From Kordiimonadales bacterium (GTDB lineage: Bacteria > Pseudomonadota > Alphaproteobacteria > Sphingomonadales > Kordiimonadaceae): 38,424 bases of DNA. The stretch is from assembly GCA_002401685.1 (NCBI GenBank), contig NVTU01000014.1, forward strand, positions 28,839-67,262. Reading direction: 5' to 3'. The notes beneath the pieces are model-generated. The model made no database searches. It was not told where the DNA came from and worked only from the letters and a program-made list of their open reading frames with translations. Every line of letters begins with the position of its first letter. Position 1 is the first letter of the stretch. Below, in pieces: positions 19,499 through 28,035 of the stretch. The position numbers and the translations under genes are program-made.

Positions 19499-20170
19499 AT
19501 GACCCAATTTACAGCCCAAAAAATCCTCTTCGATCTTGATGGTACACTGGTTGATACCGCCCCAGATCTACACGCGGCAACAAACCACACGCTGCAAACA
19601 ATTGACCGACCACCTGTGCCCATCGACGCGGTTCGCCACATGACAGGGTTTGGTGCAGTAAAGCTGATTGAAACGGCGCTTGAAACCACGGGCGGCATTG
19701 AAGGATACGATTTTGCAAAATTACGTGATGTTTTCTTAGAGTATTACAGCGAGAATATTTGCGTTCATTCTGCCTTGTACCCCTATTGCCTTGATATGCT
19801 TAAACAACTGGGCGGCGCAGGCTTCCAATTAGCTGTATGCACCAACAAGCCAATCGGCCTTGCTGTGCCACTCCTTGAAAAACTTGAGATCTATTCGCTC
19901 TTTGGTGCGGTAACCGGGGGTGATAGTTACAGTTTCAAGAAACCCGACCCTCGCCACATCCAGAAAACAGCCGAACTGCTTCCAGGGCACGGCCCCGCGC
20001 TTATGGTGGGTGATGCATCCCCTGATATTCTAGGGGCGCAAGCCGCGAGCATTCCTGTGATTGCAGTCGATTACGGCTATGCGGACCAGCCAATCGAAGC
20101 CTTAAAGCCCAATCATATCATTGGCTCTTTAGCGGATCTTCCCGCTTTACTGCGTTTACCAACTGCCTAG
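19499..20170 (+). CDS. gph: HAD-family hydrolase, phosphoglycolate phosphatase type
   Basis: The 223-residue protein has all HAD motifs: LFDLDGTLVDTAPDLH (motif I with the nucleophile Asp and the acid/base Asp), AVCTNKP (motif II), FKKPDP (motif III Lys) and VGDASPDILGA (motif IV). The cap segment between motif I and II is the Gph type. Phosphoglycolate is the likeliest substrate but related HADs hydrolyse other small phosphates. The ATG at 19499 starts just before the conserved domain; an upstream in-frame GTG would add a non-conserved 20-residue extension. No strong ribosome site is visible. Its last 53 bases overlap the convergent nucleotidyltransferase gene. Confidence 0.85.
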   Translation: MTQFTAQKILFDLDGTLVDTAPDLHAATNHTLQTIDRPPVPIDAVRHMTGFGAVKLIETALETTGGIEGYDFAKLRDVFLEYYSENICVHSALYPYCLDMLKQLGGAGFQLAVCTNKPIGLAVPLLEKLEIYSLFGAVTGGDSYSFKKPDPRHIQKTAELLPGHGPALMVGDASPDILGAQAASIPVIAVDYGYADQPIEALKPNHIIGSLADLPALLRLPTA

Positions 20171-21164
20171 CAGCTTTCCGCATCAGATGAAGCGCCAGCT
20201 GAGGGATCGGCATCCGCAAATAGTGGCTTCTGACATAGAGAATAAGTTTTGCAAAGTAAGCACCACTGATATTCTCGAGCTTGGCCCTAAAAGCGCCCCT
20301 TACTAGAGCTGACGCTGGCTTTATCATACTGTCGGCACCAACCCCAGGGACTTTTTCACCAAAAAACTCGTTGAGTGCCCAAAGCGCTGTCGCCACCGGC
20401 ATCGACGCCCCAACAGTCACTGACCGCTCAGCCAGTGCAGATTTATCAGCTTCACTTAGGCCGGAAAATAAGAAATAGAGCTCCACCAGGCTTCGGGCTG
20501 GTGTATCAAAGGAACCGTCGGCGAAACTGTGGACCGACGAATGAATAAAGAGGTCAACTGGCTGGAACGTGCGCAACTCCCGCCCCTTTAAATGTTGCGC
20601 CGCGTCAATGAGCATGTCGTTCTTAACCAAAACACGCGACGTACGCGGCAATATGCGGTGATGAACATCAACTACCGTGCGACGTCTGATGTGGCGAAGC
20701 GGCGGTAGTTCGTGCATAAATTCGCGGTAATAAGCTTGATCGTATTCGTTATCAGTCGTTTCCTCAAAAGCCCACCCGGCCTCCTTCAATCTATTTTCGG
20801 TTTGCTCCAGATCGTCTTCCGCGACAAGGATGTCGATGTCGGCCACCCTGCGGCCTTCGCTTGCAGGAAGCTCAAGCGCCACATAGGCGCCGCCTTTCAG
20901 CAAAACAGGCGCAATGCCCGTTCCATGAAGCGCACGCTCAATGCGGCCCATCTCAAATGCCAACATACGGTGATCAAACGCCGTACGAATAGCAGCATTT
21001 TCAAAAACGTCTTTCAGTTTACCTGTAGCTTCGTTTTGCCAAACCGTCGCCATCTGCCCCAAGACATGATGAGCCTCGGCAAAAGCAACCAGATCAGATA
21101 AAGATTCTGGATCTGAAGGCAATGGCGACTGCCTAACAATAGATTTAAGCCAGGCTTTTGTCAT
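20118..21164 (-). CDS. PF14907-type nucleotidyltransferase
   Basis: The 348-residue protein has the layout of the uncharacterised nucleotidyltransferase family PF14907. VLLKGGAYVALELP (residues about 87-100) and RRVADIDILVAEDDLEQTENRL (about 105-126) give the GG and Asp-x-Asp metal site of polymerase-beta-like enzymes, followed by LKEAGW and VVDVHHRIL, which are also typical. The C-terminal half is helical. The start overlaps the kinase stop by four bases (ATGA), so the two are translationally coupled. Members of this family act in some lasso-peptide clusters beside an HPr-kinase homologue. The substrate here is unknown. The 3' end overlaps the convergent gph gene by 53 bases. Confidence 0.88.
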   Translation of the reverse strand: MTKAWLKSIVRQSPLPSDPESLSDLVAFAEAHHVLGQMATVWQNEATGKLKDVFENAAIRTAFDHRMLAFEMGRIERALHGTGIAPVLLKGGAYVALELPASEGRRVADIDILVAEDDLEQTENRLKEAGWAFEETTDNEYDQAYYREFMHELPPLRHIRRRTVVDVHHRILPRTSRVLVKNDMLIDAAQHLKGRELRTFQPVDLFIHSSVHSFADGSFDTPARSLVELYFLFSGLSEADKSALAERSVTVGASMPVATALWALNEFFGEKVPGVGADSMIKPASALVRGAFRAKLENISGAYFAKLILYVRSHYLRMPIPQLALHLMRKAARQLVNAVKREDPLKSQ

Positions 21165-22093
21165 AACCCGACACCTGCGGCCAAATCTTTCACAATTTTC
21201 ATGCTATCATCGGTGTTGCCGTACTGTATTTCGTAAGACCGCGCACCGGCTACCATTGCTGTCAAAGCTTCAAAACCCCCTTGCCCTAAAAGGTGATAAT
21301 TGGTTGAACTAGGGATCAACCTCATAAGAGCCTCTGACTTGGCTAATTCTTTTGCTACTGGGCGTGCGCCCTTTGTAAACACAGGAAAAACGATAAGTTT
21401 GCTTGATAATTTTTTATCAGCCTCCTCAATGTCACTAGGCCTGGCACGCCGGTAAGCGATGTCACCTTTAGGTGTATCGCTAAGCACAGGGGTCAACCAG
21501 TCGGCCCCAGTGAAGTCACGCACAATATTTATGCTATCCCCCTTCAAAGACACCGGTCGTGGATACGGCACTAAAAGCGAGTTCGACATATCAAGCAACC
21601 CGAATTCGTCAGAAAAAAGCCGGTAACCTTCCACCATCAAGGCGGACGCAAGTGTACTTTTACCGCCACCAGAGTGGGCAGAAATGAAGATCGCACCTTT
21701 TTCGTTGCCCACCACTGCCGCATGGAAGGAAACCAGCCTGCAGCATTTAAGGGCAACTGCCAAATTTAGTCCCATCTCAAAGGACAATGCCGAAAGCCTG
21801 ACAGGAAGCGGTACAGCAGGAACAATGAAGCCCGGATCTGCAACGACTTGCCTGCGAACATATTGCCTGAACCATGAAGGAGATTTTATAGTGACAGCAA
21901 CATCGGTGATGTCGCCAAGCTTAGTCCGGACAGGCACGTCACGGTAAGCATCCTGAAGAAACTCTGTAACTTGACTGTTATTTGCTTTCAGTCGCTTGCT
22001 AAACGGCCCCAGCGACATCTCAAGACAGCCATCTTTTAGCGATTGCGCCAATTCTGGGTACGGCACATCACCCAAGCGGCGGAAGTGCTCCAT
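21161..22093 (-). CDS. HprK-related kinase A
   Basis: The 310-residue protein carries the HPr(Ser)-kinase-like P-loop FISAHSGGGKSTLASALM (residues about 137-152), followed by EGYRLFSDEFGLLD, which corresponds to the catalytic acidic segment of HprK after its P-loop. The N-terminal 110 residues are not those of HprK. NCBIfam calls such proteins HprK-related kinase A and pairs them with a PqqD-like protein, which is exactly the next gene upstream. I prefer the ATG at 22093, five bases after AGGGG and overlapping the pqqD-like stop by one base (TGATG). Since HPr itself is absent, the substrate is probably a peptide or protein. Confidence 0.9.
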   Translation of the reverse strand: MEHFRRLGDVPYPELAQSLKDGCLEMSLGPFSKRLKANNSQVTEFLQDAYRDVPVRTKLGDITDVAVTIKSPSWFRQYVRRQVVADPGFIVPAVPLPVRLSALSFEMGLNLAVALKCCRLVSFHAAVVGNEKGAIFISAHSGGGKSTLASALMVEGYRLFSDEFGLLDMSNSLLVPYPRPVSLKGDSINIVRDFTGADWLTPVLSDTPKGDIAYRRARPSDIEEADKKLSSKLIVFPVFTKGARPVAKELAKSEALMRLIPSSTNYHLLGQGGFEALTAMVAGARSYEIQYGNTDDSMKIVKDLAAGVGL

Positions 22094-22401
22094 CACTCAC
22101 CGCCCCTAGCAGGGATCACAAGCCCAGCTTCATCGAGTTGCAGGATTGTGTCTTTGATCAGCCCCTTTGGGCAATCACTTTCTTCCATTCCTATAGTCTC
22201 TAAAACTCTAGGAGCCGCACTGGCGAAAGTTTCCTTGCCGCTCGACAACACTTGAATTACTGCCGCCGATAGAAAATTCAGAGCATGCGTATCGCCTGAA
22301 AGAGTATCAAATGTCAGGTTAACGTCTTCCATAACGCGAATAACCAAACGCGTTATGTCAGCTGTCCATAAAGTCTCGTCAGAATAAGGGCCTGCAGCCA
22401 T
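22093..22401 (-). CDS. PqqD-like peptide chaperone of the HPr-rel-A system
   Basis: This 102-residue protein has the size and pattern of PqqD, the RiPP-recognition fold: LTFDTLSGDTHALNFLSAAVIQVLSSGKETF (residues about 29-59) matches the strand and helix order, with the typical 'F-N-x-L-S-x-x-x-x-xL-N' layout, and GLIKDTILQLDEAGLVIP closes the winged-helix part. Such proteins bind leader peptides and bring them to modifying enzymes. The stop overlaps the kinase start by one base. It lies 66 bases after the Tat-signal protein gene. There is no strong ribosome site before its ATG. Confidence 0.83.
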   Translation of the reverse strand: MAAGPYSDETLWTADITRLVIRVMEDVNLTFDTLSGDTHALNFLSAAVIQVLSSGKETFASAAPRVLETIGMEESDCPKGLIKDTILQLDEAGLVIPARGGE

Positions 22402-22467: not shown

Positions 22468-23259
22468 TTATTGCCCAACAAAATTCAACACAGAAATCAC
22501 ACACGACACGCCAGGGAACGAACTGTTTAGGCCTGCAGATTCTGAGTGTGATACGGCAAGAGCAAGGAATACACCTTCGTCTCCGGTATAATTAAACCCA
22601 GAACCGTTTACAAAATCGCCCGGCGTTATAGTAGATCCAGAGCTATATTCATAACAGGCATAGCCGCAATCAACGACCCCTTGGTCGTGACCGTGGCTGC
22701 TATCATCATCGTCGCCGCCACCGCCGTGACCGTGGCAGCTGCCGTCGTCGTCGTCACCACTGCCTGCAAGAAAATCATTCAAGGCGTATGAACCATTTTC
22801 GTCTACTAGGTGCGCCAGCAATTCATCGTCATCGTCGCCATCATCATCACCACCACCAGAAGAACATTCCTCGACTTCCTCGCATTCGTCGGGACGGAAC
22901 TCGGAAGGTACGCTGCCTTCGTCAAACACAAAGTCGGCATTCTCTTTGAAAGCGTTAATGCTCTCCAGGGTCCAGCCTTCGGATCCTTTGCCCTTACCTT
23001 TGCCTTTGCCTTTACCTTTGCCTTTGCCCTTAGTTGTGCCTGTTTCCAAGCTGCCATCACCGACCCAAGCCGCGCCAGTATCGTCTACAAGGATTTTAAG
23101 GCTTCCGGGGAGCGTGATAACACAAGTGAGCTGAGAAATGACGGCCTGTGCCGCAGAAGCGCGCAACGTGAGCACCATAGGCATGCCCGCAGCACCAAGC
23201 TTCAAGAGCTGGCGACGCCGATTAAGAAATGTTCCGGACTGATCATTCTTCTTTTGCAT
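22468..23259 (-). CDS. Tat-exported low-complexity protein with (Lys-Gly)8 and Asp/Gly/His-rich regions, function unknown
   Basis: I do not recognise the family. The N-terminus has a twin-arginine signal (NRRRQLLKLG at residues 13-22, a hydrophobic stretch and an AxA-type cleavage site near SAAQA). Residues 77-92 are eight Lys-Gly repeats. Residues about 134-200 are acidic and Gly-rich with DDDGDDDDE, then SCHGHGGGGDDDD and HGHDQG, which could bind metal. Eight cysteines are spread over residues 46-253. The C-terminus, from about 215, looks more ordered (FNYTGDEGVFLALAVSHSE). The ATG at 23259 is used; an upstream GTG adds four residues. It precedes the PqqD-kinase-nucleotidyltransferase trio on the same strand and is a candidate substrate. 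Confidence 0.72.
   Translation of the reverse strand: MQKKNDQSGTFLNRRRQLLKLGAAGMPMVLTLRASAAQAVISQLTCVITLPGSLKILVDDTGAAWVGDGSLETGTTKGKGKGKGKGKGKGKGSEGWTLESINAFKENADFVFDEGSVPSEFRPDECEEVEECSSGGGDDDGDDDDELLAHLVDENGSYALNDFLAGSGDDDDGSCHGHGGGGDDDDSSHGHDQGVVDCGYACYEYSSGSTITPGDFVNGSGFNYTGDEGVFLALAVSHSESAGLNSSFPGVSCVISVLNFVGQ
22984..23031 (-). repeat. Hexanucleotide tandem repeat encoding (Lys-Gly)8
   Basis: Eight copies of an AAAGGC-like unit with third-position variation (GGC, GGT, GGA; AAA, AAG) encode Lys-Gly repeats. Changes in copy number would keep the reading frame, so the tract could vary in length between strains. Confidence 0.85.
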
Positions 23260-23429: not shown

Positions 23430-25319
23430 TCAAATCTCTAGACCAAGACGCTCCAGTGTTTTGTCCAGCATTAGAAGGGCCCATAAACTGGTGTGATGGT
23501 CACGTTTCCCTGAAATATGCTCTTCACCAAATTCTTTTATACCAGCATAATCAAACAAACCTGTATCCAACAAGGCGGTACTTTTACTTAATTTCCGGAC
23601 TTCACCCTCAAGTTCCCCCCGTAGCCAAGACACCATCGGCACATCAAAGCCCTTTTTTGGTCTGTCTAACACATCGTCTGGTAATGTACCGCGCAGCGCC
23701 TCTCTAAATACGGCTTTCCCCTTGCCTTCTACAATGCGCCCATCGGCCGGCAGCCGCAGCGCATATTCAACGAACTTATGATCAAGTAAAGGGACACGAA
23801 CTTCCAACGAATGCGCCATGCTTGTTCGGTCGACCTTGGTCAAAATATCACCAGGCAAGTATGTTTTAAGGTCTATATATTGCACTTGCGAAAGGGCATC
23901 GGCGCCTTTCACCTCGTTTGCAAGCTCAACAAATCGATCGTGCGCTCGGTAGCCACCAAGGCGTTTCTTCATTAAATCACTATGCAACCGAGCCCGGTCC
24001 CGATCGGGAATTTTACTGACGCTATGACAATACGCTTCAGGCGATGACCTACTCAAAGCTTCGAATGTAGATTTCGCCCGCAAGAATTGAGGGGCCCGGT
24101 CCAGTTTCGGATAAAGAGCAGCAAGGGGCTTAAAAATGGGCCGTCTTAAGCCAATTGGCAACCGTGATCGCAGAGCCTCTTCCATCATATGGAACCGATA
24201 ACGCCTATATCCGCCGAATAGTTCGTCGCCACCGTCACCTGATAAAGCAACTTTCACTTTCTTCCTTGCGAGTCCGCTCACCCTGTAAGTCGGGAGCGCC
24301 GACATATCTGCAAAGGGCTCATCAAAAATTTCGGCCATACGTTGCAGCATAAACCCGTCAGAAGCCGAGGCTAGTCGGGACTGGTGATGCGTACCGAAAT
24401 GGTCTGCAACAGCCTGGGCAAAGCCGCTTTCATCATAAGCAGCATCTTCCGAGCCGATAGCGCACGTGGCAACGGGGTCATTGGAAAATTTACTCATCAT
24501 GGCAACGACGGCCGAACTATCAACACCACCTGACAAAAACGCACCAAGGGGCACATCAGCGACAAGCCGCATTTGCACCGCATCTTCTAACCGCTCTAGC
24601 AGATCCATTTGGCTGTTGGGGCTCGTCGTACCCGGCTCCAAATCAGGGCTCCAGTAGGTTGAAACTGAAAGATCAGGCGAGCCTTGCTTCTTGACGAGCG
24701 TACAAGCGGGCGGCAATGTCGCGACCCCGTCCACGATCGACTTCGGATCGGGAACATAGCCCAGAGTCAAATAGTCTTCCAAGGCGTCTAGGCGCAGTTT
24801 GCGTCTTAACTTCCTGTGACACAATAAGCCCTTCAATTCTGAAGCGAACAAAAAGGTACCGTCCGGCAACAGGGTGTAATAAAGCGGCTTGATACCAAGC
24901 CGATCTCGCGCAAGGAACAGCTCTCTAGTTCTTGTGTCCCATATTGCAAAAGCGAACATTCCACGTAGCCGCGTTACACAGCTTTTGCCCCATTCCATGT
25001 ACGCTTCCAGCAATACCTCAGTGTCGGAATGGGTACGAAACCTATGGCCTAGAGCTTCGAGTTCCCGCCTAAGGTGTTGAAAGTTATAGATTTCGCCGTT
25101 GTAAGAAATAACCACCTTACCATCTGCGCAATACATCGGCTGTGAGCCGCCTTCAATATCAATGATACTCAGTCGGCGGTGCCCCAAGGCCACCGTTTGA
25201 CCAAAGTAAAAGCCATCGCCGTCTGGCCCACGGTGCGCGATGCTATCAGTCATCTTCCTGATAGTTGCTTGATCAAGATCAGTGCCTGTTGGCACCATTA
25301 TACCAGTTATGCCGCACAC
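23430..25319 (-). CDS. XrtA/PEP-CTERM-associated amidotransferase (asparagine synthetase-like)
   Basis: The 629-residue protein starts with Met-Cys-Gly-Ile, so the nucleophilic Cys2 of the class II glutaminase domain is in place (residues about 2-200, with RGPDGDGF, GHRRLSIIDIE and YNGEIYNF). The C-terminal asparagine-synthetase domain has the pyrophosphatase loop AFLSGGVDSSAV at residues about 260-270 and SGDGGDELFGGYRRY. The start is GTG at 25319, overlapping the exosortase end by 13 bases. TIGR03108-type amidotransferases are a fixed part of exosortase A loci; the target is thought to be a sugar or peptide unit but is not established. It is not a stand-alone lasso cyclase. Confidence 0.93.
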   Translation of the reverse strand: MCGITGIMVPTGTDLDQATIRKMTDSIAHRGPDGDGFYFGQTVALGHRRLSIIDIEGGSQPMYCADGKVVISYNGEIYNFQHLRRELEALGHRFRTHSDTEVLLEAYMEWGKSCVTRLRGMFAFAIWDTRTRELFLARDRLGIKPLYYTLLPDGTFLFASELKGLLCHRKLRRKLRLDALEDYLTLGYVPDPKSIVDGVATLPPACTLVKKQGSPDLSVSTYWSPDLEPGTTSPNSQMDLLERLEDAVQMRLVADVPLGAFLSGGVDSSAVVAMMSKFSNDPVATCAIGSEDAAYDESGFAQAVADHFGTHHQSRLASASDGFMLQRMAEIFDEPFADMSALPTYRVSGLARKKVKVALSGDGGDELFGGYRRYRFHMMEEALRSRLPIGLRRPIFKPLAALYPKLDRAPQFLRAKSTFEALSRSSPEAYCHSVSKIPDRDRARLHSDLMKKRLGGYRAHDRFVELANEVKGADALSQVQYIDLKTYLPGDILTKVDRTSMAHSLEVRVPLLDHKFVEYALRLPADGRIVEGKGKAVFREALRGTLPDDVLDRPKKGFDVPMVSWLRGELEGEVRKLSKSTALLDTGLFDYAGIKEFGEEHISGKRDHHTSLWALLMLDKTLERLGLEI

Positions 25320-26842
25320 AAGCTGCGCCCTTTCGGTGACGAAAATAATTCATGCCATAGAAACCTATCGTAGGAAAAAGTCGATAGAAATTTGGTTATT
25401 TTTTTCCCGCCACGAGCTGAGCCATCGTACGCTGTAGACGAAATCACGAGAACCGCCCCAGCTGCGGTACCCTGAAGTAGCCGCTGCTTCACTGTTTCAA
25501 ACCTTACAGCCAAACCAGACACTTGTGGGTTGCCGTTTATAAAGTACCCCACTAGTACATGCCTTTTTTTATCCCGAAAACTATAGGTACGGGGCTGTAG
25601 GCGCCAGATTCCAACGTGGATTTCCTCCAGCGCATCGCCAGCCACCTCTTCCCACCTGTGACCAACAGGGAGAACTCCCTTTTGTAGTAAACTATCACCA
25701 GGGCGCAACGGGCAATAAAGACCCGCAGACACCACAAAAGTGTCGGCAGCATTACGGTAAGCAAAACTATACTGCTGATCAGAGCCGCGAAAAACCGATA
25801 CGCCCTGCCCTGACGCCTCCGGCAACAGCCGGTAGTCACAATCTTGGCACTCTGGGGCCGCCAGTGCATCTACTGTAACGGAAACACCGCTTTTGGCGGC
25901 GCCAACCACGGCCGCCAAGGGCGCCATGATTATAGCCACAGCGGGGATAATCATGGCAAAGCCAAACGCAAGGGGCTTGTTGCTAGCGGTCTTTAGTAAA
26001 TTGCTCGCAGGCGTTACTTCATCGACCTTATCGGCATAACGGTAGGCCAGAGCGATCAACGCAAACAGCACAAACGAGAGAAACCCCCACCCGTACACGA
26101 CATGGTCTACACCTTTCGCAAACGACTGATCCGTTGCTTCCGAGATCAGCAATATGCCAAGCACACGCAGCGCATTAGCCACAATAGGGATAAGAGCGGC
26201 AGCTATCAAGATTAAGACCCTACCTCTCAAACTACTATAGGCAAGGTTTGCCAATAGTGCGCCGGTTACCAAGCTGGTAAAAAGAAATTTTATGCCTGCG
26301 CAGGCCCGGGCCACTTCATAAATACCACTCGAAATAGTAATTAGAACACCGTCCGCTTCAACGGGCACGCCCAGCACCGGCAGAACCGCGATTACCATTT
26401 CAGCCGTCACAGTTTGCAGAATGGGTATAAGACTGATCCCAATCGGGATGGCTAAATAGAGGAACAGCAACGGGAACAAAAACCGGTAAAACAAGGCTCT
26501 GCCGTAGCAAGCCATCAGCAATCCTTGAAACGCCGATATTAACGCTACGTGCGATAGGAATTTCGCATCGCCCGCTTCACCTAGTAACCACAGCAGCCCC
26601 GAAAGAAGGACAATCGCGGTACCTCGCCAATCAAACGATAGCAGAGAAGCAGAAAAATGGGTCCGCCGACTCCAGAGCAAGCCTGCGCTTGCAAATGGTA
26701 CAAGAATACCATGAGAAAAACTGTCAACATTCCATACGATGTCGGCCAAATGAGCCAAAGTGCCAAACCATGCCCAAAACAGGCTGATAGCGCCTAGTAA
26801 AAAGGCGGCTGTGTGCAGCCCTATCTTTTGGCTTGAGTTCAA
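25307..26842 (-). CDS. xrtA: Exosortase A fused to EpsI-like domain
   Basis: The multi-pass membrane protein carries the exosortase triad: Cys in EVARACAGIKFLFTSLVTGALLA (about residue 181), Arg in NALRVLGILL (about 226) and His in GVDHVVYGWGFL (about 247). These enzymes cleave and anchor PEP-CTERM proteins. Roughly eight or nine hydrophobic segments precede the C-terminal EpsI-type domain (residues about 300-470), a fusion seen in the XrtA class. I chose TTG at 26842: it overlaps the upstream gene's stop (TTGA) and follows GAGG by seven bases, while a TTG 17 codons earlier has no such support. The length, 511 residues, is typical. Confidence 0.93.
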   Translation of the reverse strand: MNSSQKIGLHTAAFLLGAISLFWAWFGTLAHLADIVWNVDSFSHGILVPFASAGLLWSRRTHFSASLLSFDWRGTAIVLLSGLLWLLGEAGDAKFLSHVALISAFQGLLMACYGRALFYRFLFPLLFLYLAIPIGISLIPILQTVTAEMVIAVLPVLGVPVEADGVLITISSGIYEVARACAGIKFLFTSLVTGALLANLAYSSLRGRVLILIAAALIPIVANALRVLGILLISEATDQSFAKGVDHVVYGWGFLSFVLFALIALAYRYADKVDEVTPASNLLKTASNKPLAFGFAMIIPAVAIIMAPLAAVVGAAKSGVSVTVDALAAPECQDCDYRLLPEASGQGVSVFRGSDQQYSFAYRNAADTFVVSAGLYCPLRPGDSLLQKGVLPVGHRWEEVAGDALEEIHVGIWRLQPRTYSFRDKKRHVLVGYFINGNPQVSGLAVRFETVKQRLLQGTAAGAVLVISSTAYDGSARGGKKITKFLSTFSYDRFLWHELFSSPKGRSLCAA

Positions 26843-28035
26843 CGCAGGGCCTCGTTGATTACACTTGATAAATCTTGATATGACCTGCTCCAAGAAAAGT
26901 TAGCCTTAACAAAACCATGCCCAGACGCGCCGACCTTTTTGGCAGCTTCTGGCCCATCCAACAATGCTGACACTCCCGTAGCAAACTCCTTGGGAGAACC
27001 TGCAACATAAAGGTGTTCCCCGTGCTCAGCATTAATGCCTTCATTGCCTAAAACAGTTGTCACAACGGGTTTTGACATAGCCATTGCTTCCAGTATTTTA
27101 TTCTGAATACCTCTTGCCGTCTTCATTGGCGCGACACAAACAGCAGCAGCAGCTAACACTTCAGCCATATTTTCGACAAAGCCGAGTACTGTTACATTTG
27201 GGTTAGCACTTAAACGCTTAACTCTGGCTGGCACGGGCCCGCCACCAATTGTGAAAACCGCGTCAGGATGCTCTGCACGAATGAGTGGCCACATATCACG
27301 GCAGAACCATTCCACCGCCTCGATATTTGGTAGGTAATCCATTGCCCCAGTAAAAACGATGTTTTTTGGCTGCGCCTTACCCTCATGCTGCGACGCATCG
27401 AACTGCTTAAAATCCACGCCATTTGGAATACCGCTTATTTCCTTAAGCCCACCACCGTGTAGGGCTGAAAAGAGTGTAGCTTCGTCTTCACTAACAAAGA
27501 CTGATCGCTGGCTGGTCCCATAAACTGATTTCTCAAACTGGTTTAATTTCTCTGCCTCTCTGCGATAAACCCATGACATCGGCCAAGACGCAGTTTCTGC
27601 GTAAGCGCGCCATTTTTCTGAATCGACATCAACGAAATCGCAAACCACGGGAATGGTTAGCCGGGACGGCAGCAGTGAAGCGGTTGCTGCGGAAAACAAA
27701 AAGATCAAATCAACCGAACCGCCTTCTATCAGATCCTTGACATATGATCGTAACCTCTTGTGAGGATAAGCGTTTTCAGTTAAGCACTGCCCCTTTAGAA
27801 GCCCGCGTAAACTCAATAACTTCTGCTGAAACGGCGCAGTATGCTGAAAACACGTTGTTTCCATGCGCTCCTTCAAAAACGCCTCATATTGTCGGTCATC
27901 TTTTAAATCGACAAAACATCCCAAATGGACGGTATGTTCCTCTGCTAACCGCTTCAGAAAATTCCAAGAACGAATTTTATCCCCCTTATTAGGCGGATAA
28001 GGAATTCGGTGCGAAAGGAAAAGGATATTTGCCAT
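26839..28035 (-). CDS. TIGR03087-family XrtA-associated glycosyltransferase
   Basis: A 398-residue GT-B glycosyltransferase with N-terminal ILFLSHRIPYPPNKGDKIRSW, the hallmark of the group, VDVDSEKW, then SGIPNGVDFKQF, NIVFTGAMDYLPNIEAVEWFC, VTVLGFVEN and the C-terminal donor-site region APMKTARGIQNKILEAMAMSKPVVTT. It should transfer a sugar to the lipid-linked EPS repeat at the inner face of the membrane. Its neighbours are the exosortase (overlap of four bases) and the FemAB-like protein. The donor sugar cannot be inferred. Confidence 0.93.
   Translation of the reverse strand: MANILFLSHRIPYPPNKGDKIRSWNFLKRLAEEHTVHLGCFVDLKDDRQYEAFLKERMETTCFQHTAPFQQKLLSLRGLLKGQCLTENAYPHKRLRSYVKDLIEGGSVDLIFLFSAATASLLPSRLTIPVVCDFVDVDSEKWRAYAETASWPMSWVYRREAEKLNQFEKSVYGTSQRSVFVSEDEATLFSALHGGGLKEISGIPNGVDFKQFDASQHEGKAQPKNIVFTGAMDYLPNIEAVEWFCRDMWPLIRAEHPDAVFTIGGGPVPARVKRLSANPNVTVLGFVENMAEVLAAAAVCVAPMKTARGIQNKILEAMAMSKPVVTTVLGNEGINAEHGEHLYVAGSPKEFATGVSALLDGPEAAKKVGASGHGFVKANFSWSRSYQDLSSVINEALR

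Follow-up and report, generated by a model that had tools for sequence, protein, structure and literature searches.

The described systems closest to the genes analysed here phosphorylate a peptide precursor (PMC9266682, PMC13381572). In the lasso peptides of the paeninodin and pseudomycoidin type, the kinase PadeK phosphorylates the C-terminal Ser of the precursor PadeA before maturation, and the addition of one or two hexoses then requires PsmN, a nucleotidyltransferase homologue (PMC9266682). In the case of the linear polyphosphorylated peptides (LPPs; Nat Commun 2026, PMC13381572), LppK places several phosphates on one core Ser, at which neither Thr nor Tyr is accepted, and the precursor of 35-200 aa has a conserved N-terminus and a variable remainder. 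LPPs and paeninodins are called restricted to Bacillota (PMC13381572). In this study we analysed a stretch of 38,424 nucleotides from a Kordiimonadales bacterium (contig NVTU01000014.1; hereafter the window), in which three overlapping genes encode a PqqD-like protein, an HprK-related kinase and a PF14907 nucleotidyltransferase, and a gene directly upstream encodes a protein with a twin-arginine translocation (Tat)-like signal. Comparison of these genes across many genomes inclines us, by a modest degree, to the reading that the four form a protein-modification module with the Tat-like protein as its dedicated substrate. If this is true, phosphorylation guided by a RiPP (ribosomally synthesized and post-translationally modified peptide) recognition element (RRE) extends from the LPPs and lasso peptides of Bacillota to Tat-exported proteins of Pseudomonadota, and an export signal also serves as the modification leader.

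The LPP loci resemble this one in having a discrete RRE, an HprK-like kinase and an NTP transferase, together with a non-lasso precursor and a position among polysaccharide genes (PMC13381572), and the trio of the window shares the LPP trait of RRE, kinase and NTP transferase without lasso enzymes. The two differ in export, which in LPPs involves a SipW-type peptidase and an MsbA-like exporter whereas here a Tat-like signal is present, and in the phosphosite, which is core Ser3 in LPPs (PMC13381572) whereas here the Ser of a C-terminal tail motif is the candidate. The available text of PMC13381572 does not contain the terms Proteobacteria, Pseudomonadota, twin-arginine, Tat signal or exosortase. 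With the paeninodin and pseudomycoidin systems (PMC9266682) the locus shares an HprK-type kinase and a nucleotidyltransferase homologue, and the conserved His-Lys-Asp-Asp residues of paeninodin-type kinases may correspond to His125, Lys146, Asp163 and Asp169 of the window kinase. In these characterised systems, which use the same folds, the target of phosphorylation is a Ser in a precursor with a leader (PMC9266682, PMC13381572); a preliminary description of this DNA had drawn the comparison with the paeninodin type. That description had also seen no lasso cyclase, B2 protease or short precursor. The asparagine-synthase homologue beside the trio scored 264.5 bits with the lasso cyclase model (cut-off 525) versus 866.1 with the XrtA amidotransferase model (cut-off 816.9). 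The B2 peptidase family PF13471 was not matched in the 77%-complete genome of the window or in any of six own-family genomes, and was matched in two of the ten genomes searched in total. Among the listed window frames of 60 aa and longer, the upstream neighbour of the trio was the 267-aa Tat-like protein and not a short precursor. A lasso peptide cluster was thus rejected, as the cyclase homologue at the locus, to which the cyclase check was confined, is an XrtA amidotransferase and PF13471 was not found in the genome.

The claim that the system is undescribed did not survive, since NCBIfam already names the kinase (TIGR04352, HprK-related kinase A) and its PqqD-like partner (TIGR04353, 'HPr-rel-A system PqqD family peptide chaperone') as one system. 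Both names are carried by genes on a Sphingomonas parapaucimobilis plasmid, and the kinase name also by a gene of Vibrio alfacsensis; a nucleotidyltransferase family protein follows in each. The HPr-rel-A annotation differs from our module in that the Tat gene is a 'hypothetical protein' in both plasmid records. We found no paper on the HPr-rel-A system, the Tat substrate family or its motifs in the open-licence PMC literature searched. The substrate family, its signal motif and its tail motif are therefore a new element of the system. The NCBIfam names give no target, and the candidate target now has a place, a recognisable signal and mostly one candidate Ser, which makes the system directly testable by mass spectrometry. 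We class the module among the RRE-guided phosphorylation systems, as a member of neither the lasso nor the LPP group.

The trio is a real genetic unit and not a chance arrangement, because many other genomes of the phylum have the genes in the same order. In the window all three reading frames are open on the minus strand (Table 1), in the overlapping order given in the preliminary description. The TGA stop of the PqqD-like gene and the ATG of the kinase gene have one base in common (TGATG), or four bases overlap if the kinase starts at the GTG one codon upstream, and the kinase and nucleotidyltransferase genes overlap by four bases. The kinase matched TIGR04352 with 234.3 bits (cut-off 200) and the nucleotidyltransferase matched PF14907 with 135.9 bits (cut-off 31.2). 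The PqqD-like protein (E 3e-8) missed the TIGR04353 cut-off of 35 by 0.5 bit and had no match at E 1 in the Pfam scan; its orthologues at loci L002 and L125 scored 33.2 and 60.1 bits with TIGR04353.

Table 1. Genes of the module and two neighbouring genes in the window.
Feature	Coordinates	Strand	Basis and remarks
PqqD-like protein (RiPP-recognition-element type), 102 aa	22093..22401	(-)	TIGR04353 34.5 bits; same place in relatives
HprK-related kinase A, 311 aa	21161..22096	(-)	TIGR04352; alternative ATG at 22093
PF14907 nucleotidyltransferase-fold protein, 348 aa	20118..21164	(-)	PF14907 score; KG...R..DID motif
Candidate substrate, 267 aa	22468..23271	(-)	GTG start; ATG at 23259 possible; directly before PqqD-like gene
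XrtA/PEP-CTERM system amidotransferase	23430..25319	(-)	TIGR03108 866.1 bits, cut-off 816.9; neighbour
Exosortase A	25307..26893	(-)	TIGR03109 242.4 bits; neighbour, not constant part of module

Matches to the kinase model above its cut-off were found in 11 of 385 genomes sampled from the class, in 61 of 398 sampled from the phylum and in 64 of 98 closer relatives; 14 control genomes gave none. The survey of gene neighbourhoods covered 102 loci, with flanks of mostly about 9 kb a side, several of which end at contig ends. These loci came from 100 genomes (the window's included), out of 123 whose kinase reached the TIGR04352 cut-off or narrowly missed it, and from two of eight plasmid records (V. 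alfacsensis and S. parapaucimobilis); two duplicate rows (L147.1 and L159.1), in which one protein had matched twice, were dropped. A PF14907 protein was found in 96 of the loci and a PqqD-like protein in 92, in 89 of these directly before the kinase. On a Methylobacterium tardum plasmid the PqqD and HprK parts are fused (L126:4419-5570) with a PF14907 gene nearby, and the best NCBIfam PqqD match of the fusion is the lasso PqqD model (42.4 bits, below the cut-off of 70). The catalytic residues are intact. In 101 of 102 loci the kinase has kept the His that precedes the P-loop, the GKS and the DE, the remaining one being a misread frame, and the PF14907 proteins keep KG..R..D-x-D in 96 of 96; the strict patterns themselves matched 93, 101, 100 and 89, the rest being read from the printed exceptions. 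In the window kinase the invariant columns of a six-sequence alignment include His125, the Walker A sequence GGGKST with Lys146, Asp163-Glu164 and Asp169.

It is highly improbable that the kinase is a regulatory HPr kinase of the phosphotransferase system (PTS) type, with its target encoded elsewhere. There is a distant homology to HprK (PF07475 matched the window kinase at E 0.24 and that of L125 at 2e-4), but the window kinase had no TIGR00679 match at E 1e-3 and its orthologue at L002 reached 10.7 bits versus a cut-off of 240, so that an HPr/PTS kinase identity was rejected on the model scores. Moreover, the PqqD, PF14907 and Tat neighbours are constant, and many genomes of the same order hold a second short HprK-like frame which could fill the ordinary role. 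A phmmer search of the kinase against PDB gave no solved relative at E 1.

The fourth gene of the window encodes a protein with a Tat-like signal (RRRQLLKLGAAGMPMVLTLRASA), an acidic and low-complexity (GK)n body and the C-terminal tail PGVSCVISVLNFVGQ. The twin Arg, the hydrophobic core and AxA are plain in its sequence; it matched no NCBIfam family and no Pfam family close to a cut-off. With the Tat model TIGR01409 (cut-off 16.7) two of five relatives scored 13.3 and 14.7 bits, and one of the two also scored 13.1 bits with PF10518 (cut-off 22.7); no family was assigned to any of the six proteins in scans against NCBIfam and Pfam. The candidate substrate shares its locus, and often its genome, with the PEP-CTERM/exosortase A system, but it lacks a PEP-CTERM tail, as no NCBIfam family was matched at E 1e-3 or at E 1 and the tail is PGVSCVISVLNFVGQ. 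The available main text of the PEP-CTERM/exosortase article PMC1569441 mentions neither HPr nor PqqD. The (GK)n simple repeat (22984-23031) is possibly length-unstable, and relatives have GN, GGK or Asp tracts.

The Tat protein to which the preliminary description had pointed proved to be the conserved neighbour, so that the RiPP-like reading proposed there has a constant candidate substrate. A Tat-like gene lies by the kinase in 97 of the 102 loci. A signal profile found 92 of these in the upstream position (two weakly, at 10-11 bits), although this count is partly in-sample because the profile was trained on upstream genes. Three were recognised by eye (L129, L130 and L149), one is divergently oriented (L155) and one has moved downstream as a short frame of 75 aa (L164). 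Outside the upstream position the profile gave nine rows, representing seven distinct frames among 12,735, and two of the seven were the L155 and L164 genes. In three further genomes (L094, L099 and L108) the substrate is encoded elsewhere in the genome, with the tail motif in all three. At L139 and L165, where the search covered the locus only, neither a Tat-like gene nor a PqqD by the kinase was found. Four loci have two substrates each (L067, L083, L086 and L122), and eight kinase-bearing genomes have an additional unlinked paralogue, in all of which the tail motif is kept. Three own-family genomes without the kinase (G405, G407 and G412) are also without the substrate. As judged from these patterns of association, the Tat-like protein is probably the substrate of the trio. 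Most of the unlinked paralogues (L166-L173) adjoin, as seen by eye, YCII-like and sigma-factor-like genes, perhaps as a second conserved locus.

Despite little sequence likeness, the build of the substrates is common to nearly all loci: a hydrophilic start, a Tat-like signal, a variable body and a mostly conserved tail. The signal has the form RRxLLKxGAAxxPxVLTLxxxAxA or a variant of it, usually with a Cys soon after, and the body varies highly in length and composition (Asp tracts, GK or GN repeats). The tail was examined in 100 substrate proteins from 96 loci, a set which leaves out the 10-bit match at L127, the eight unlinked paralogues and the unlinked substrates of L094, L099 and L108. 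The motif [S/T]-C-x-x-S occurred within the last 60 residues of 84 of these proteins (in 82 within the last 30), starting at a median of 12 residues from the C-terminus, and 74 of 90 retained it after removal of near copies. Among the other genes of the same loci it was found in 4 of 1384 (two within the last 30 residues). In the 84 tails the Cys is invariably followed by W, L, I, V, F, Y or M, and the Ser nearly always by a hydrophobic residue. Within the window's own family the median pairwise identity was 0.68 for the signal, 0.73 for the 11-residue tail, 0.38 for the body and 0.47 for the kinase (200 sampled pairs each), the tail figure being inflated because tails were selected by the motif; outside the family the identity of the body was 0.25. 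We give about an even chance to the proposal that the Ser is phosphorylated at the tail motif.

The same tails bear on the alternative that the conserved Cys is the residue modified, or that it becomes joined to the Ser, for instance by elimination of phospho-Ser to dehydroalanine and formation of a thioether, with phosphorylation merely a step. Cys and Ser do stand together in the 84 motif-bearing tails, although both are fixed by the search pattern itself, and a second Cys often follows the signal. However, no constant lyase or cyclase was noticed in the displayed neighbourhoods, in which no search was aimed at these enzymes, and the LPP and paeninodin kinases give phospho- or polyphospho-Ser (PMC9266682, PMC13381572). 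We therefore regard Cys or Cys-Ser chemistry as decidedly unlikely.

In the case of the signal, the motif P-x-h-h-[T/S], with the Pro 12 or 13 residues after the twin Arg or Lys-Arg, was present in 69 of the 100 substrates and, under the same rule, in none of 30 ordinary Tat signals taken with TIGR01409 from six own-family genomes. A looser form was found in 81 substrates versus 2 of the 30 controls. RREs of lasso systems bind leaders via [Y/W]xxPx[L/V/I/A/F/Y], and the LPP leader consensus is YxxPxVLxHQ (PMC13381572); P-x-V-L is common to this leader and the Tat signal, whereas the Tyr and the HQ are missing here. This overlap in P-x-V-L hints that the leader read by the PqqD-like protein is the Tat signal itself. 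By this analogy it might recognise the P-x-h-h-T element, a proposal in which our confidence falls a little short of even.

From the observed gene association, motif conservation, co-occurrence and intact catalytic residues we infer the following sequence of binding, modification and export. The Tat signal, with its twin Arg and P-x-h-h-[T/S], would double as a leader, and the PqqD-like protein would bind this element and present the substrate. The HprK-related kinase would then use cytoplasmic ATP to phosphorylate the Ser that is conserved in the C-terminal [S/T]-C-h-x-S-h. In a second step the PF14907 enzyme would act on the phosphate, to which a sugar, a sugar-phosphate or a nucleotide would be added. 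Phosphorylation of the tail Ser followed by its decoration is proposed by analogy with PadeK/PsmN and LppK, and modification of the phosphate by the PF14907 enzyme is put forward tentatively. Finally, the finished, modified protein would be exported by Tat and would work at the surface, often beside an XrtA-type exopolysaccharide. The signal would be of the Tat and not the Sec type because Tat carries proteins that are already folded and finished, and ATP is cytoplasmic, so the kinase must act before export. The interpretation in the preliminary description, in which a leader-bearing protein or peptide is phosphorylated or nucleotidylated before export or anchoring, is partly supported: a conserved candidate substrate and analogous systems speak for it, whereas the 'undescribed' status and an obligatory exosortase fell away.

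Several findings weigh against this scheme, besides the partly in-sample training of the signal profile. A single modification site is not universal, since the tail motif is missing in 16 of the 100 substrates, including the near variant NCYLS at L113. In its strict form the signal motif is lacking from 31 of the 100 substrates, and in a Sphingomonas-type group of 11 its position reads like SAIVSIRPALAQ. The window's candidate substrate had no Tat-model match at E 1, and no recognisable PqqD is present in 10 of the 102 loci; seven of the 10 belong to one kinase clade, and five of these seven have an unassigned frame of 69-92 aa in that place. The conserved tail Cys may point to disulfide or thiol chemistry instead of Ser phosphorylation. 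As for the second step, deletion of the LPP NTP transferase caused no detectable product change (PMC13381572), and a host glycosyltransferase was not excluded for the hexose addition attributed to PsmN (PMC9266682). A kinase structure predicted from four sequences had a pLDDT of 34 and was not used. The substrate type follows the kinase tree, which speaks for the scheme but shows co-inheritance and not contact, as shared descent alone may suffice to explain it. Fourteen of the 16 loci with motif-less substrates form one kinase clade (SH-aLRT 96), and the substrate type changes three times on the tree versus a shuffled mean of 15.2, in a scoring to which L127 was added by hand and in which L113 and three unlinked substrates were counted as motif-bearing. 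Among 13 aligned motif-less substrates conservation was confined to scattered columns, one of which is a Ser located just inside the mature end.

A trypsin-like peptidase gene, possibly for a maturation protease, lies in the flank of 11 loci (L084, L092, L106, L127, L129, L130, L138, L143, L149, L152 and L153), eight of which have SCxxS-less substrates; the L084 copy matched PF13365. A sulfotransferase-like gene was seen in another 11 (L132, L137, L142, L145, L146, L154, L156, L157, L159, L160 and L161), directly after the kinase in those displayed. The one copy scanned, from L145, is a TPR-sulfotransferase (PF13469, 177.5 bits), and this gene may serve to tailor the substrate further.

Ten window genes upstream of the trio, from the amidotransferase through an export protein, bear NCBIfam names of the XrtA system; nine of them reached their cut-off, whereas the chain-length protein remained below its own (240.6 versus 278.85). 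XrtA-type genes were found in the flanks of 49 of the 102 loci (15 of 25 in the own family, 8 of 37 in another order or class and 26 of 40 elsewhere in the phylum), and some own-family XrtA genes lie 12-13 kb away, beyond the flank. Among the phylum genomes XrtA was above its cut-off in 25 of 61 with the kinase versus 10 of 337 without it; among the relatives it was detected at E 1e-20 in 62 of 66 kinase-bearing genomes (including two with kinases just under the cut-off) versus 18 of 32 others. At the same time, no XrtA was detected even at E 1e-20 in 30 of the 61 phylum genomes with the kinase, of which many are incomplete, and among the 43 same-contig pairs listed for the relatives the kinase and XrtA were less than 20 kb apart in 34 and more than 180 kb apart in nine. 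The exosortase link is thus statistically real, shaped by ancestry and not obligatory. Of the coupling proposed in the preliminary description, the upstream XrtA operon and the frequent co-occurrence stand, whereas an obligatory link was rejected, as in many kinase-bearing genomes XrtA was not found or lies far from the kinase. Since polysaccharide genes of the XrtA type are close to about half of the loci, the module bears on the products of exosortase-A loci beside PEP-CTERM proteins.

The exosortase data could also mean that the trio acts on the exopolysaccharide pathway, phosphorylating and nucleotidylating a sugar or carrier, and that the Tat-like protein is a passive co-transcribed partner. 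The XrtA counts in flanks and in phylum genomes agree with this, as do the amidotransferase and stp1/stp2-like glycosyltransferase genes that flank the module in distant families. However, 53 of the 102 flanks, which are short, have no XrtA-type gene, the Tat-like gene is far more constant, and the unlinked Tat paralogues retain the tail motif. PqqD-type proteins, furthermore, bind peptides. We consider an action on the polysaccharide alone unlikely, and retain the Tat-like protein as the substrate. A more particular proposal, which we hold to be improbable, is that its tail Ser would be a phospho-glycosyl anchor that attaches or primes the XrtA-type exopolysaccharide, with a bifunctional Tat leader; if it were true, a protein-polysaccharide phosphodiester linkage would form in the cytoplasm, and Tat would carry the product out in folded form.

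Other neighbours of the module recur in particular groups. Amidotransferase homologues are found again beside it in distant genomes. In the window's own order the module often lies beside phoR, phoB and pst genes, with a phoR-like gene in 41 of 63 clustered loci (one of them a duplicate contig). Control by PhoB or phosphate starvation is not supported, as the regions upstream of 100 substrates, when scanned for Pho boxes, averaged 9.21 matches out of 14 versus 8.91 in shuffled sequences. In the L064-L125 group the phoR-like, phoB-like and pst genes stand upstream of the substrate, and glmU-glmS, recurrent in the order, stand downstream. On the V. alfacsensis plasmid (L124:4875-7942) the hypothetical protein, kinase and nucleotidyltransferase genes adjoin genes for 2-aminoethylphosphonate uptake. 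In the window, the 3' end of the PF14907 gene has a convergent overlap of 53 bases (20118-20170) with a plus-strand phosphoglycolate-phosphatase-like gene.

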